This document shows positions 45,267 to 50,663 of a stretch of DNA of 64,000 nt, one piece after another. The notes beneath the pieces were generated by a model. The model did no database searches. It had not been told where the DNA came from and worked only from the letters and a program-made list of their open reading frames with translations. The translations under genes were made by a program, and so were the position numbers. The stretch's first letter is position 1, and each line of letters opens with the position of its first letter. This DNA comes from Palleronia rufa (GTDB lineage: Bacteria > Pseudomonadota > Alphaproteobacteria > Rhodobacterales > Rhodobacteraceae): positions 139,620 through 203,619 of the forward strand of contig NZ_JQEY01000002.1 of the NCBI RefSeq assembly GCF_000743715.1. The letters are read 5' to 3'.

Positions 45267-46256
45267 TCAGACCTCTCCCTTGATCTCGACCCGCGGCAGG
45301 TCCAGCGCGTCGCGGTCCACGGGACCGGCGGGCGCCTCCGTGCGCCGCCCGATTCGCAGCCGTGCCGACCGGGCCCGCGGGTTGGCGTCGATTTCGGGCG
45401 CGTCGGCCGCGATGCCCCGCGTGGTGACGTCGAAGCGCGGCGCCACGGGGTCGGCCGCGGGCTGGAAGCGGTTGCCGCCGCCGCCCGTGCCGCCGCGCTG
45501 CTGAAAGAACCGTTTCACCACCCGGTCCTCCATGGAATGGAACGACACTACCGCCAGCCATCCGCCGGGCGCCAGGGCGCGCTCGGCCGCCTCCAGCCCC
45601 GCGGCGAGCTGGCCGAACTCGTCGTTCACCGCGATGCGAAGCGCCTGGAAACTGCGCGTGGCCGGGTGGCTCTGGCCCTGCTTGGGGCGCGGCAGTTGCC
45701 GTTCGACGATCCGGGCAAGGTGGCCGGTGGTGCGGATGGGGGCGACGGCGCGCGCGGCGACGATGGCGCGCGCGATCCGCCGCGAGGCACGCTCCTCGCC
45801 ATATCGAAACAGGATGTCGGCGAGCGTGGTCTCGGTCGCGTCGGCCACGATGTCCGCGGCGCTGGGGCCGGTATTTCCCATGCGCATGTCGAGCGGGCCG
45901 TCGCGCATGAAGGAAAACCCGCGCTGCGGCTGGTCGAGCTGCATGGACGATACGCCGAGGTCGAGCACCACGCCTGCCACGGGCTTGTCCGCCACCGTGT
46001 CGAGATCCGAGAACGTGCCCTCGACCAGGTGCAGCGCCTCGCCGTAGTCGTCCGCCCAGGCCGATGCGAGGCCGAAGACGGTCGGATCGCGGTCGATGCC
46101 GACGACCCGGTCCGCGCCTGCCGCCAGAAGACCGCGTGCATAGCCGCCCGCGCCGAAGGTGCCGTCGATCCAGGTACCGCCGATCGGCGCGCAGTGCCGC
46201 AGGATCGGGTTCAGCAGGACCGGAACGTGGGGGCGGTCGTGGACGGTCCGGATCAT
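45267..46256 (-). CDS. rsmH: 16S rRNA m4C1402 methyltransferase RsmH (MraW)
   Basis: A 329-residue SAM methyltransferase that methylates N4 of C1402 in 16S rRNA at the ribosomal P site. Blocks: [12 protein letters not shown] at the start, SAM site [48 protein letters not shown], and [14 protein letters not shown]. The start MIRTVHDR at 46256 lies 4 bases after the mraZ stop. Second gene of the dcw operon. Confidence 0.95.
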
Positions 46257-46260
46257 CGCC

Positions 46261-46773
46261 TCACGCCTCATCGTCCTCATCGTCCCCGCCGATGTATTCC
46301 ATCGGATCCTTGTCGGGATCGTAGCCGGTCTTCGGATCCGCAGGAGGACGGACGAATTTCGTCGCGTGGGTGTCGGGATGCCAGATCCGGAACGTATCGC
46401 CGCGGCCCAGGATGAGCGCCTTGTCCTCAAGCCCGAGCTTGCCGCGCGCATAGGGCGGCAGCACGATCCGGCCGGTATCGTCCAGGACAAGCTGCTGGGC
46501 GCGTTCGTAGATCATGTTCTCCAGGTCGAGCCGGCGCCTGTCATACTCGGGAAGGCGGCGGATCTTCTTGTTCAGGATCGCGAGGCGCCGCATGGACATG
46601 ACCTCGAGGAAATCGCGCCGGTCGTCGCCGAAGATCATCACCATACGCGGAAGCGTGCCCGGTTCGCGATCCCGATCCTTCTCGTCCAGCACCTTGCGGA
46701 AATCGGCCGGGATCGACACGCGCCCTTTGCTGTCGATCTTGTTTTCGTGATGTCCGATGAAGACGTCGAACAC
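46261..46773 (-). CDS. mraZ: transcriptional regulator MraZ
   Basis: A 170-residue protein with two AbrB-like SpoVT/MraZ folds (about 5-60 and 85-135): [20 protein letters not shown] in the first and [18 protein letters not shown] in the second. MraZ binds repeats upstream of its own gene and controls the dcw operon. The start is GTG 46773, fixed by AGAGGAG six bases upstream and by the family start just before the GHH motif; the longer open frame upstream has no similarity. The acidic C-terminal tail (GGDDEDDEA) is an extension. I did not find clear MraZ boxes in the leader. Confidence 0.93.
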
Positions 46774-47150
46774 CGAAAACTCCTCTTGACCAAACCCCCC
46801 TTCTCGGATTCTGCTGATTCCCGTGAACGGAAACGGCGACCCGAACTGCTGCCACTGTCCGGATCGCCGCTCTAGTCCCGTCTCCGGGTATGTCCGATAG
46901 CGCGCGCCACCTGGGGGGATGTCTGCTCGCCCGCGCACCGGATCTTCACATCGAGAAGCGCGTTTTTACTCCGCCTGTACGAAACCTAAGCCTCTGTTTT
47001 TTATCGGATCCTGCGGATCTTCTTGTCCGCCTGTCCGTCGCCTCTCGATGACTTACGAATGGCATGGGAAATCATGGTACACAACTTTTTTCTGGCTTCG
47101 GGCCCTGCTGCGACGCGGTGAACCAACACGGATCCGTGTGCAGGTCGGCA
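46774..47150 (-). ncRNA. long mraZ leader, possible UpsM-type small RNA
   Basis: About 375 bases separate a promoter-like AT-rich block (47152-47188) from the mraZ start, with no coding potential on the minus strand. In Rhodobacter sphaeroides the dcw cluster has an unusually long leader from which the small RNA UpsM is made. Position and length suggest a homologous leader here. I cannot show sequence similarity, and I see no intrinsic terminator, so the RNA ends are unknown. Confidence 0.4.
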
Positions 47151-47151
47151 A

Positions 47152-47188
47152 ATTATAGCTATATGATGTGGTCACACCGATTTGTCAT
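47152..47188 (-). promoter_or_regulatory. candidate promoter of the dcw leader
   Basis: On the minus strand ATGACA (47188-47183) lies 17 bases before CATATA, and a perfect TATAAT follows at 47157-47152. The block AATTATAGCTATATGATG is strikingly AT-rich against the surrounding GC-rich DNA. Which hexamer is used is unclear. Confidence 0.4.
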
Positions 47189-47193
47189 GCAAC

Positions 47194-47361
47194 ATGAAGT
47201 GGGCAGATAATTTTCAGAGCGCGCTGAATTTAGACCGATATCTCGGATGGAAAATTCGCTTGCCTGTGGCGAAGGTACATCAGGGGGCCAATTTTGGCCT
47301 TTGGTGGCAGCCGAATCCAGCCAGTCTCACGTATTCCCATGGTTTGCCGATTCTCGACTGA
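47194..47361 (+). CDS. possible 55-residue protein, AT-rich, unknown
   Basis: An open frame starting MKWADNFQSALNLDRYLGWK and ending SHGLPILD, with protein-like composition and codon use unlike the GC-rich genes around it. No good ribosome binding site precedes ATG 47194 and I recognise no family. It occupies the place where R. sphaeroides has a DUF1127 gene before its CcsR RNAs, but it is not DUF1127. Could be chance. Confidence 0.2.
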   Translation: MKWADNFQSALNLDRYLGWKIRLPVAKVHQGANFGLWWQPNPASLTYSHGLPILD

Positions 47362-47462
47362 AGAGCTGTTCCGTGAGGACCTCAGGCCCGGCCGGTCCCA
47401 ACCTCGGCCCGGCGCCGCGCGCAGGAATGCGCTTGCTGCATAGCAGCATTGCCGAGGGGTTC

Positions 47463-47491
47463 CTTGTGCATTTGCAGCATGCGCCTATCTT
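47463..47491 (+). promoter_or_regulatory. candidate heat-shock-type promoter for the repeat RNA
   Basis: CTTGTG (47463-47468), 17-base spacer, TATCTT (47486-47491). The CTTG start and the C-TATCT form resemble RpoH-type promoters of alphaproteobacteria. Transcription would begin near 47498, about 36 bases before the first stem-loop. Read by eye only. Confidence 0.4.
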
Positions 47492-47533
47492 CGTCTCAAC
47501 CAAGGCGAACATATCGTCGGCAGAGATTTCGAG

Positions 47534-47786
47534 CGTCCCACCTCCTCCCGGGGCGGTCGAATAGGCGGCGGCACCTACCTCCTCCCGGGTGTCGCCGCAC
47601 GAAACACCGCAATCGCGGGGCGCGCCCACCTCCTCCCGGGCACCCTCGTGACCAGAGCGGCGGCACCTACCTCCTCCCGGGTGTCGCCGCACGAAACACC
47701 GCAATCGCGGGGCGCGCCCACCTCCTCCCGGGCAACCCTCGTGACCAGAGCGGCGGCACCTACCTCCTCCCGGGTGTCGCCGTTTT
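47534..47786 (+). ncRNA. CcsR/cuckoo-type small RNA cluster, six anti-SD-loop hairpins
   Basis: Six stem-loops in a row, all presenting the same 10-base loop ACCTCCTCCC, which contains CCUCCUCCC, the motif that names the CcsR (conserved CCUCCUCCC motif stress-induced) RNAs of Rhodobacter sphaeroides. Loops lie at 47540-47549, 47577-47586, 47628-47637, 47669-47678, 47720-47729 and 47762-47771. Hairpins 2, 4 and 6 have a 12-pair stem (GCGGCGGCACCT / GGGTGTCGCCGC); hairpins 3 and 5 have a shorter GCCC/GGGC stem with an outer GGG/CCC. From hairpin 2 on this is a tandem repeat of 92-93 bp. Hairpin 1 stands alone with stem CGTCCC/GGGGCG. Such RNAs can pair with Shine-Dalgarno sequences. No DUF1127 gene is next to it. 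Confidence 0.75.
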
Positions 47787-47787
47787 G
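47751..47787 (+). terminator. terminator formed by the sixth hairpin
   Basis: The last stem (47751-47761 with 47772-47782) is followed directly by TTTTG, so the final repeat doubles as a rho-independent terminator for the plus-strand RNA. The other copies lack the T-run. Confidence 0.65.
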
Positions 47788-47803
47788 CTGTGAGGTGTTT
47801 ACA

Positions 47804-48199
47804 TCAGCCGTAGCTACGCTGGCGGGATCCGGTGCGGTGGCCGCGGCCGGTTTCGTACTCGATCACCGCCAGAAGTTCGAAGATGCTCACCGGCTTGCGC
47901 AGCACCGAGGTGATGTTCGGAGCCATGCCGAAAAGCTCTCCGCGCGCGAAGAGCGCGGATCCGGTAACCACGACCACGCAGCAGTCCGGGTTGGCGTAGT
48001 TGGCCAGCGCGGCGACGGACAGTCCGCTGTCCTCACCCAGCATGAGATCGAGAACGACGGCGTCGAACGCATGGGTCAGCAGGAGCTTGCGGGCGCATTC
48101 TGCCTCGTCCACGACAATCGCCTCATGGCCCGCATCGACCAGCACCTCATGCCAGATGCCGCCAAGAAGCGCATCGTCTTCCACAATCAGTGTTCGCAT
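47804..48199 (-). CDS. single-domain response regulator (receiver only)
   Basis: A 131-residue receiver domain without output domain. Acidic pocket Glu7-Asp8-Asp9, phosphoacceptor Asp51 in VVLDLML, switch Thr79 in VVTGSA and Lys102 in RKPVSIF. Such proteins act as phosphate relays or by protein contact. No histidine kinase is nearby. The start is ATG 48199 (MRTLIVEDD). It converges on the small-RNA cluster, with only 17 bases between its stop and the T-run. It reads in the same direction as uvrD upstream of it (73-base gap). Partner unknown; alphaproteobacterial stress relays use receivers like this. Confidence 0.85.
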   Translation of the reverse strand: MRTLIVEDDALLGGIWHEVLVDAGHEAIVVDEAECARKLLLTHAFDAVVLDLMLGEDSGLSVAALANYANPDCCVVVVTGSALFARGELFGMAPNITSVLRKPVSIFELLAVIEYETGRGHRTGSRQRSYG

Positions 48200-48272
48200 G
48201 CCGGTTCCTCTATCTGCTCCACGCAAACCTGCACGATCAGCGTAAAGAAACACTGAAACGGCGCCCGGTTTC

Positions 48273-50663
48273 TCAGAACGGCACGTCTCCGGCCTGATCC
48301 GCGCCGACAAGGAACCGCCCGACGACCTTTTTCTTTCCCGCCTTGTCGAATGCGACCTCGACCTTGTCGCCTTCCAGCGCCGCGACCGATCCATAACCGA
48401 ACTTCTGGTGGAACACCCGGTCGCCTTCTGCGAAGGCGGACACGGCTTCGGCGTCGATGACCATGCTCCGGCTCTCTCGCGGCTGGCTCATGGGACGCGA
48501 CTGGCTGCGGGCCTGCAACCGACGCCACCCCGGGGAATTGTAGACATCCGCCCGGCTCGCGCGGTCGTGCAGATCCGATTGCGACGCGGCCACGATCTGC
48601 GGAGAGGCGCTCGCCGCCATGCCCGCCGCACCGTAGCCGCCGCCATAAAGCCCCGGAGGCGTCAGCACGTCGACATGATCGGCGGGCAGTTCGTCGATGA
48701 ACCGCGACGGCATGGACGATTGCCACTGACCATAGACGCGACGGTTGGCGGCGAAGCTGATCGTCGCCAGCTCCTCGGCGCGGGTGAGGCCGACGTAGGC
48801 CAGGCGCCGCTCTTCCTCGAGCCCCTTCAGGCCCGATTCGTCCATCGACCGCTGGGACGGGAACAACCCGTCCTCCCAGCCCGGCAGGAACACCGCGGGA
48901 AACTCCAGCCCCTTGGCGGCATGGAGCGTCATGATCGACACCTTGGCCTCTCCCGCATCGCTCTCATTGTCCATGATGAGCGCGACATGCTCCAGGAATC
49001 CCTGCAGGTTCTCAAAGGATTCCAGCGCCTTGACCAGTTCCTTGAGGTTCTCCAGCCGGCCCGGCGCCTCGGGTGTCTTGTCGGTCTGCCAATGGCCCGT
49101 GTAGCCGGATTCGTCCAGGATACGCTCGGCGAGTTCGATATGGCTGGTCTGCCCCGCGCGCACCAGCTCGTGCCAGCGCGCGAGGGCGTCGACCAGCATC
49201 CGCAGCTCCGCGCCGCCCTTGCCACCGAGCCCCTGGTCGGCCAGCAACAGGCGCGCGCCATCGACAAGGCTCACGCCGTTCTCCCGCGCCGTCACCTGGA
49301 TCCTTTGCTGGGCCTTGTCGCCAAGGCCGCGCTTTGGCGTGTTCACGATCCGCTCGAACGCCAGGTCGTCGTCCGGACTGACGGCAAGGCGGAAATAGGC
49401 CATGGCATCACGGATCTCCAGCCGCTCGTAGAAGCGTGGTCCGCCGATGACGCGGTAGGGCAGGCCGATGGTCAGAAAGCGGTCCTCGAAAGCGCGCATC
49501 TGGTGCGAGGCGCGGACCAGGATCGCCATGTCCTCCAGTCCGAACGCCCGCATCCCGCGCGTTCCGCCGGACATGGCGTCGATCTCGTCTCCGACCCAGC
49601 GCGCTTCCTCGTCGCCGTCCCAGTGACCGATCAGACGGACCTTTTCGCCGGCCTGCTCGGCGGTCCAGAGGGTTTTTCCCAGGCGTCCCTTGTTGCCGTC
49701 GATCACCCGGGAGGCGGCGGCCAGGATATGCGGGGTCGAGCGGTAGTTCTGCTCCAGCCGCACCACCTTGGCGCCCGGAAAGTCCTTTTCGAACCGCAGG
49801 ATATTGCCGACCTCGGCACCGCGCCAGCCGTAGATCGACTGGTCGTCGTCACCCACGCAGCAGATGTTCTTGTGACCTTGGGCCAGCAGCCGCAGCCAGA
49901 GATACTGGGCCACGTTGGTGTCCTGGTACTCGTCGACCAGAATGTAACGGAACCAGCGCTGGTATTGCTCCAGCACATCCGGGTGCTCCTGAAAGATCGT
50001 CACGACATGCAGCAGCAGGTCGCCGAAATCGACGGCGTTCAGGGTCTTCAGCCGGGTCTGGTAATAGTCGTAGAGTTCCGTCCCGCGATGATTGAAGGCC
50101 CCCGCCTCTGCCGCGGGCACCTTCGCGGGCGTCCAGGCGCGGTTCTTCCAGTGGTCGATGATGCCGGCCAGCTGCCGCGCGGGCCATCGCTTTTCGTCGA
50201 TATTCTCAGCCAGGATGAGCTGTTTCATCAGCCGCACCTGATCGTCGGTGTCCAGGATCGTGAAGTTCGACTTCAGCCCCGCCAGTTCCGCATGGCGACG
50301 CAGCAGCTTGACGCAGATGGCGTGGAAGGTGCCCAGCCACGGCATTCCTTCGACCGTCTGGCCCAGCAGGCTGCCCACGCGGTTCTTCATCTCGCGCGCG
50401 GCCTTGTTGGTGAAGGTCACGGCCAGAATCTCGTTCGGGCGGGCGCGGCCGGTCATCATCAGGTGCGCGATGCGGGCGGTGAGCGCCTTGGTCTTGCCGG
50501 TCCCCGCACCCGCCAGCATCAGCACCGGACCGTCCAGCGCCTCGACTGCCTCCTGCTGAGCGGGGTTCAACCCGTCCAGATAGGGTGTCGGTCGCGCGGC
50601 GGCGGCCTGACGGGACAGCGGCACGGCGGCCTCGAACGCATCGCTTTCGTCGAAATCGGTCAT
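48273..50663 (-). CDS. uvrD: DNA helicase UvrD
   Basis: A 796-residue superfamily 1A helicase for nucleotide excision and mismatch repair. Q motif GLNPAQQEAVEA, Walker A AGAGTGKT (Lys58), motif II DEYQDTN, motif III VGDDDQSIYGWRGAE, motif IV LEQNYRST, motif V VSIMTLHAAKGLEFPAVF and motif VI LAYVGLTRAEE. The C-terminal part ends with a Tudor-like FGYGSVAALEGDKVEVAFDK domain that contacts RNA polymerase in relatives. It starts at ATG 50663, divergent from the flavin dehydrogenase gene. Confidence 0.95.
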   Translation of the reverse strand: MTDFDESDAFEAAVPLSRQAAAARPTPYLDGLNPAQQEAVEALDGPVLMLAGAGTGKTKALTARIAHLMMTGRARPNEILAVTFTNKAAREMKNRVGSLLGQTVEGMPWLGTFHAICVKLLRRHAELAGLKSNFTILDTDDQVRLMKQLILAENIDEKRWPARQLAGIIDHWKNRAWTPAKVPAAEAGAFNHRGTELYDYYQTRLKTLNAVDFGDLLLHVVTIFQEHPDVLEQYQRWFRYILVDEYQDTNVAQYLWLRLLAQGHKNICCVGDDDQSIYGWRGAEVGNILRFEKDFPGAKVVRLEQNYRSTPHILAAASRVIDGNKGRLGKTLWTAEQAGEKVRLIGHWDGDEEARWVGDEIDAMSGGTRGMRAFGLEDMAILVRASHQMRAFEDRFLTIGLPYRVIGGPRFYERLEIRDAMAYFRLAVSPDDDLAFERIVNTPKRGLGDKAQQRIQVTARENGVSLVDGARLLLADQGLGGKGGAELRMLVDALARWHELVRAGQTSHIELAERILDESGYTGHWQTDKTPEAPGRLENLKELVKALESFENLQGFLEHVALIMDNESDAGEAKVSIMTLHAAKGLEFPAVFLPGWEDGLFPSQRSMDESGLKGLEEERRLAYVGLTRAEELATISFAANRRVYGQWQSSMPSRFIDELPADHVDVLTPPGLYGGGYGAAGMAASASPQIVAASQSDLHDRASRADVYNSPGWRRLQARSQSRPMSQPRESRSMVIDAEAVSAFAEGDRVFHQKFGYGSVAALEGDKVEVAFDKAGKKKVVGRFLVGADQAGDVPF

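Follow-up and report, generated by a model that had tools for sequence, protein, structure and literature searches.

What is the hairpin array that lies beside mraZ in Palleronia rufa, and how could it be expressed when the protein gene that usually precedes such arrays is missing? We analysed a stretch of 64,000 nucleotides of this genome, hereafter the window, for which an earlier reading (the original prediction) had proposed a six-hairpin RNA array of the CcsR/cuckoo type. Palleronia is placed in the Roseobacteraceae in NCBI. The CcsR RNAs of R. sphaeroides bind Hfq, act on flhR mRNA and are induced by stress. Their operon, ccaF1-CcsR1-4, was formerly RSP_6037-RSs0680, and a CIN1 locus is a DUF1127 gene with a CcsR-like RNA, the gene lying directly upstream and being co-transcribed. 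Published passages on this operon describe CcsR1-4 as products of the ccaF1 3' UTR, made from an RpoHI/II promoter and processed by RNase E. In R. sphaeroides, CcaF1 takes part in CcsR maturation.

Hairpin array and RNA family

The loop sequence CCTCCTCCC was found six times in the 64-kb window, always on the + strand (47541, 47578, 47629, 47670, 47721 and 47763). The chance expectation is 1.09, and six copies were reached in 0 of 100 shuffles. The array strand (47498-47800) folds with -146.3 kcal/mol (z = -4.43), and none of 100 shuffles was as stable. The six loop-bearing hairpins of the original prediction were confirmed, as were the T-run after the last of them (TTTT at 47783-47786, directly 3' of hairpin 6) and the tandem unit, which had been put at 92-93 bp and measures 92 bp within the array (2.4 copies, 99% matches). 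The further claim of identical loops on differing stems stood for the loop and only in part for the stems: hairpins 2, 4 and 6 are near copies, as are 3 and 5, leaving three independent stem types in the window, not six. Six hairpins may be a minimum, since short-read assembly can collapse near-identical units. Hairpin 6 and its T-run are likely to form the terminator of the array; a terminator scan, which admits loops of 3-8 only, returned no match there.

The array comprises the following units.

47525 to 47603, + strand: CcsR-like unit 1, with hairpin 1 (47528-47561) and hairpin 2 (47565-47598); RF02791, 54.7 bits, and fold
47611 to 47695, + strand: CcsR-like unit 2, with hairpins 3 and 4; RF02791, 43.8 bits
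47704 to 47786, + strand: CcsR-like unit 3, with hairpins 5 and 6; RF02791, 38.3 bits

The Rfam model CcsR1 (RF02791) matched the array three times end to end (E values of 1.1e-12, 2e-9 and 8e-8), each match covering model positions 1-83, or two hairpins. All three scores are below the gathering cut-off of 65.3 bits. The next family, RF02344 (alpha-r14), reached 46.1 bits against a cut-off of 58.8, which a congener array (L064) passes with 63.5 bits. The covariance-model search proposed in the original prediction thus found both families, every score in the array being below the Rfam cut-off; at its default threshold, Rfam reported nothing at the array. We attribute the low RF02791 score to a narrow model, because 163 of 198 family genomes match it and only nine pass the cut-off, and because all 14 Palleronia genomes match and none passes. 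We do not file the array as a formal member of RF02791. It does carry what defines CcsR/cuckoo RNAs broadly, namely CCUCCUCCC loops on several hairpins with differing stems.

In the Rfam alignment of CcsR1, one model unit comprises two CCUCCUCCC hairpins, and a published passage on the R. sphaeroides transcript RS0680a gives it two stem loops with an anti-Shine-Dalgarno motif in each (PMC3927594). With two hairpins per CcsR, the array amounts to three CcsR-like units. The statement setting its six loops against four in R. sphaeroides compared hairpins with RNAs, since four CcsRs imply eight loops. An expansion to six hairpins was rejected for the same reason and because Palleronia genomes carry 1 to 14 exact loops each, a range that includes two genomes cut by contig ends. 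Conservation in close relatives also favours the family assignment, with RF02791 matches throughout the genus.

Stem pairing was determined in 190 hairpins of 43 genomes. The four loop-adjacent pairs formed in 98-99% of hairpins, compared with 48-86% after the arms were re-dealt, with four to six pair types per position. The hairpins were picked by the loop motif, which makes loop sameness in this set a matter of construction; variant loops exist, and one congener (G004) was left out for want of two exact loops close together. The hairpin structure is supported by covariation, and the array is almost certainly a CcsR/cuckoo-type small RNA, as had been predicted.

Arrays of other sizes were also seen. 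The largest (L190, family genome G201) has 25 exact CCTCCTCCC in the 1500 nt that follow the promoter element described below. Six copies of CCTCCTCCC, mostly at 45-bp spacing, also occur on an actinobacterial contig (L063, a Demequina lutea MAG) and are probably unrelated.

Conserved locus and missing ccaF1 gene

The neighbours of the array are as follows.

46261 to 46938, - strand: mraZ reading frame (true start inside), divergent neighbour; Pfam MraZ, 49.8 bits
47804 to 48196, - strand: receiver gene of the single-domain response-regulator type, facing the array tail to tail; Pfam Response_reg, 39.2 bits
48273 to 50663, - strand: on the far side, the conserved gene for a uvrD-type helicase; Pfam UvrD-helicase, 304.5 bits

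All 14 Palleronia genomes have mraZ on one side of the array and uvrD on the other, G008 and G013 having it at contig ends with the locus split over two contigs. The mraZ-uvrD interval is the ancestral home of the array; the new location claimed for it was not borne out, and a novel site is ruled out by this conservation. What is unusual in the reported placement between mraZ and an orphan receiver gene is the receiver gene, which stands beside the array in 2 of the 14 genomes (the window's own and G004). It is an accessory gene outside the conserved locus. The R. sphaeroides numbers RSs0680 and RSs0682 (UpsM, upstream of mraZ) presumably refer to the same locus as the window array. A stretch upstream of mraZ (46900-46940, CGCGCGCCACCT..GGGGATGTCTGCTCGCCCGCGC) is nearly identical in congener G010 and may belong to a dcw leader resembling UpsM.

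No DUF1127-like peptide was detected by HMM in six frames of 46001-49000, in agreement with the original prediction, and none was found within 700 nt after the window's promoter element. In the genus, a DUF1127 gene lies within 700 nt after this element in 12 of 14 genomes, the exceptions being the window's genome and G010. It also lies no more than 700 nt upstream of the array in 32/32 other loci with enough sequence; these were chosen from 65 loci, of which 35 looked like the group, minus L044 and L093 (array at the edge) and L064 (same record as G003). Of the features of a CIN1 locus, the window therefore lacks the gene directly upstream, co-transcribed with the RNA, and retains the promoter of the ccaF1-CcsR operon, with the two-part element and the -10 as in congeners. 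Counted from where the element begins, the first exact loop is reached after 105 nt in the window versus 332-488 nt in other loci with the pattern, and some 50 bases separate the -10 of the window from its first loop. Given this difference in distance, it is very probable that ccaF1 was lost and its promoter kept. No ccaF1 remnant was detected by HMM between promoter and array.

The window's genome has three DUF1127 genes, two on contig C10 and one on C20. Relocation of ccaF1 to C10 was rejected: the C10 gene (G000_C10b) clusters with DUF1127 genes from G006 and G002 (support 100/99), and since these relatives coexist with ccaF1, it is a paralogue. A DUF1127 gene on C10 (L010, 1325-1380) shares the two-part layout of the ccaF1-CcsR promoter, and similar layouts precede the relatives of the C10 gene in G006 and G002 (L146, L149). 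Elsewhere in the family, L188 and L194 hold the promoter element with eight and five loops, respectively, and no detectable DUF1127 gene; ccaF1-less arrays thus recur in the family. The RNA itself is of a known kind, and its ccaF1-less, promoter-fused form is a recurring variant.

The two-part promoter and possible PhaR control

The promoter region contains the following elements, assigned by sequence.

47434 to 47448: TGCTGCATAGCAGCA, first half of the element, containing CTGCATAGCAG at 47436-47446; fits the PhaR consensus CTGCNNNGCAG
47463 to 47468, + strand: -35 box (CTTGTG) of a promoter putatively of RpoH type, the sigma factor being inferred from the R. sphaeroides operon
47464 to 47479, + strand: TTGTGCATTTGCAGCA, second half of the element (TGC-N4-GCAG), overlapping the -35
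47486 to 47491, + strand: -10 TATCTT, similar in several congeners

Both boxes of the CTTGTG-17-TATCTT promoter named in the original prediction are present with a spacer of 17, and the stress control that it suggested is plausible. Transcription would be expected to start near 47498. A sigma-70 promoter scan listed one site only, at 47182, and CTTGTG/TATCTT is absent from its list.

In relatives, the layout upstream of ccaF1 is CTGCATAGCAGCATTG with small variations, 12-13 bases, TTGTGC-N4-GCAG and then the -10. The two-part element occurs in 14/14 Palleronia genomes, the window's genome and G010 included, and the pattern was found in 46 of 48 loci of a wider set; of the two misses, G004 carries the element and G016 is truly without it. 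The G016 locus (L023) has a DUF1127 gene and three exact loops, with no mraZ or uvrD match in the available stretch. Exact CTGCN3GCAG was counted 30 times in the 48 loci (1.05 expected) and the one-mismatch form 47 times (15.45 expected), the expectations being taken from single-base shuffles; among the 30 are one match in a shifted register (L073) and others lying off the element (L068, L092). Across the family, the pattern was present in 102 of 198 genomes, and the reversed pattern gave no match. Thirty element loci were fetched from the matches in these 102 genomes: a DUF1127 gene lay within 700 nt in 27, at least two exact loops in 27, and both in 25. Because of these 25 loci, we conclude that the element marks the ccaF1-CcsR operon across the family. 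Among the others, L214 lacks a DUF1127 gene and has one loop, L209 has a DUF1127 gene and one loop, and L211 a DUF1127 gene only.

Of all the results, the conserved PhaR-like element holds the most interest. Passages of one paper (PMC12542648) give the R. sphaeroides PhaR site as 5'-CTGCNNNGCAG-3', the S. meliloti motif as YGCRNYGCR, and paired PhaR sites on either side of the -35 in phasin promoters of S. meliloti. CTGCATAGCAG in the first half of the element fits the R. sphaeroides site. Exact TGCTGCNNNGCAGCA occurs in the window's genome only at 47434, a single exact 12-base site being in itself not unlikely in 3.85 Mb, and 30 more match with a single mismatch, against 13 in the reversed control. 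Among the few of these 30 viewed, one is 20 bases before phaC (PhaC_N, 251.3 bits), one lies before a phasin gene (34.4 bits) of contig C22 and one precedes the C10 DUF1127 gene with the whole two-part layout; a further one, L163, has no gene assigned to it. A looser site, CCGCAGTGCAG, stands before a phasin-like gene (phaP) beside phaR; this phasin-like gene scores 20.0 bits, below the cut-off of 24.9. No PhaR-like site was present in the stretch viewed at the second phasin gene (C1). The genome encodes PhaR (92.8 bits).

PhaR control of the array promoter is predicted from these sequences, with chances that we put as even. The PhaR-like element belongs to the whole family of operons, not to the window alone, and the wider proposal is one that we hold in equal balance: the ccaF1-CcsR operon would be part of the PhaR regulon across the family, PhaR sitting on the CTGCN3GCAG/TGCN4GCAG pair around the -35 and coupling PHB storage to an anti-Shine-Dalgarno RNA that lowers uptake and carbon genes, and a few lineages, the window's included, would make the RNA alone from the same switch. 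In the literature searched, which did not extend to the main papers on CcsR, CcaF1 and cuckoo RNAs, we found no link of PhaR with CcsR or CcaF1; PhaR and DUF1127 occurred together in one genome comparison only, which names them apart. The literature passages on CcsR describe no carbon-storage input.

The same CcsR-type array could instead carry another regulator's site or an extended RpoH-type promoter with no PHB link, a reading that we regard as tentative and somewhat doubtful. The overlap of the second half with the -35 agrees with it, as does the departure of TGCATAGCA from the S. meliloti motif at some positions (in the passages of PMC12542648), and the available passages on the canonical R. 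sphaeroides promoter describe it solely as RpoHI/II-dependent. The first half, however, is a palindrome that fits CTGCNNNGCAG and is located 5' of the -35, and the near-matches at phaC, at the phasin gene and at phaP beside phaR also argue for PhaR.

Two further explanations would deny the RNA any present function. That the array is a decaying relic, which lost ccaF1 and whose RNA is no longer made or processed, is improbable: the gene is indeed missing here and in G010, but loops, stems, promoter and terminator appear intact, and 2 of 30 other family loci (L194 and L188), in which no DUF1127 gene is detectable, keep the element together with five and eight loops, respectively. A GC-rich minisatellite or coding repeat without RNA function is hardly credible. 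Its units are tandem and near-identical, and overlapping + strand frames of 105 and 114 aa run through it, but the compensatory stem changes across genomes, compared with re-dealt arms, together with a place, promoter and upstream gene that are constant across the family, speak against both forms. The coding reading was dropped given these stem changes and the constant locus.

Proposed working and candidate targets

We favour as probable a trans-acting CcsR/cuckoo-type array at its ancestral mraZ-uvrD locus that has lost ccaF1 and whose kept promoter drives the RNA, with stress-driven, PHB-gated transcription followed by Shine-Dalgarno blocking. From the observed family resemblance, locus, absence of ccaF1 and promoter conservation, we infer the following course. 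The former ccaF1 promoter would now drive the array RNA directly, firing under heat or oxidative stress through an RpoH-type sigma factor. PhaR on the two-part TGC/GCA element would hold the promoter down until PHB granules draw it off. RNase E would cut the transcript between units into two-hairpin RNAs, and the loop (ACCUCCUCCC) would pair with GGAGG-type Shine-Dalgarno sequences of target mRNAs and block translation, the loops being redundant and their number setting the dose. Such anti-Shine-Dalgarno silencing is quite likely. An array without CcaF1 might mature differently, given the part of CcaF1 in CcsR maturation in R. sphaeroides; if that role is still needed, another DUF1127 protein could supply it in trans.

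Known systems offer parallels for most of these steps. The array resembles R. sphaeroides ccaF1-CcsR1-4 in its tandem units of two hairpins with CCUCCUCCC loops, its final hairpin with T-run and its putative stress-type promoter; it differs in lacking ccaF1 in cis, in having three units rather than four and in scoring below the RF02791 cut-off. With S. meliloti alpha-r14/NfeR1 (RF02344) it shares the same loop motif in every hairpin on differing stems, whereas it has six hairpins against three and stays below that family's cut-off. Passages on NfeR1 report that its redundant anti-Shine-Dalgarno loops silence mRNAs at the ribosome-binding site and that it has its own promoter under LsrB and NtrC. 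A precedent for a PHB-binding repressor at a small-RNA promoter is S. meliloti PhaR, which represses the sRNA MmgR (passages of PMC12542648); MmgR is a different RNA from the window array. A family-wide PhaR-type operator, if true, would supply a carbon-storage input to CcsR. The ccaF1-less arrays offer a natural test of whether RNA maturation needs the RNA-binding partner in cis, or at all.

Targets were sought as GGGAGGAGG lying 2-9 nt ahead of an ATG; the search returned six matches, which fall at five places, against two in the reversed control. Two of the places, in a molybdopterin-oxidoreductase frame (L179) and in L180, may be internal starts. At the other matches, three open frames begin, encoding an ABC permease, a TRAP DctQ protein and a phosphonate-binding protein, and these three transporter genes offer a weak lead to targets of the array.
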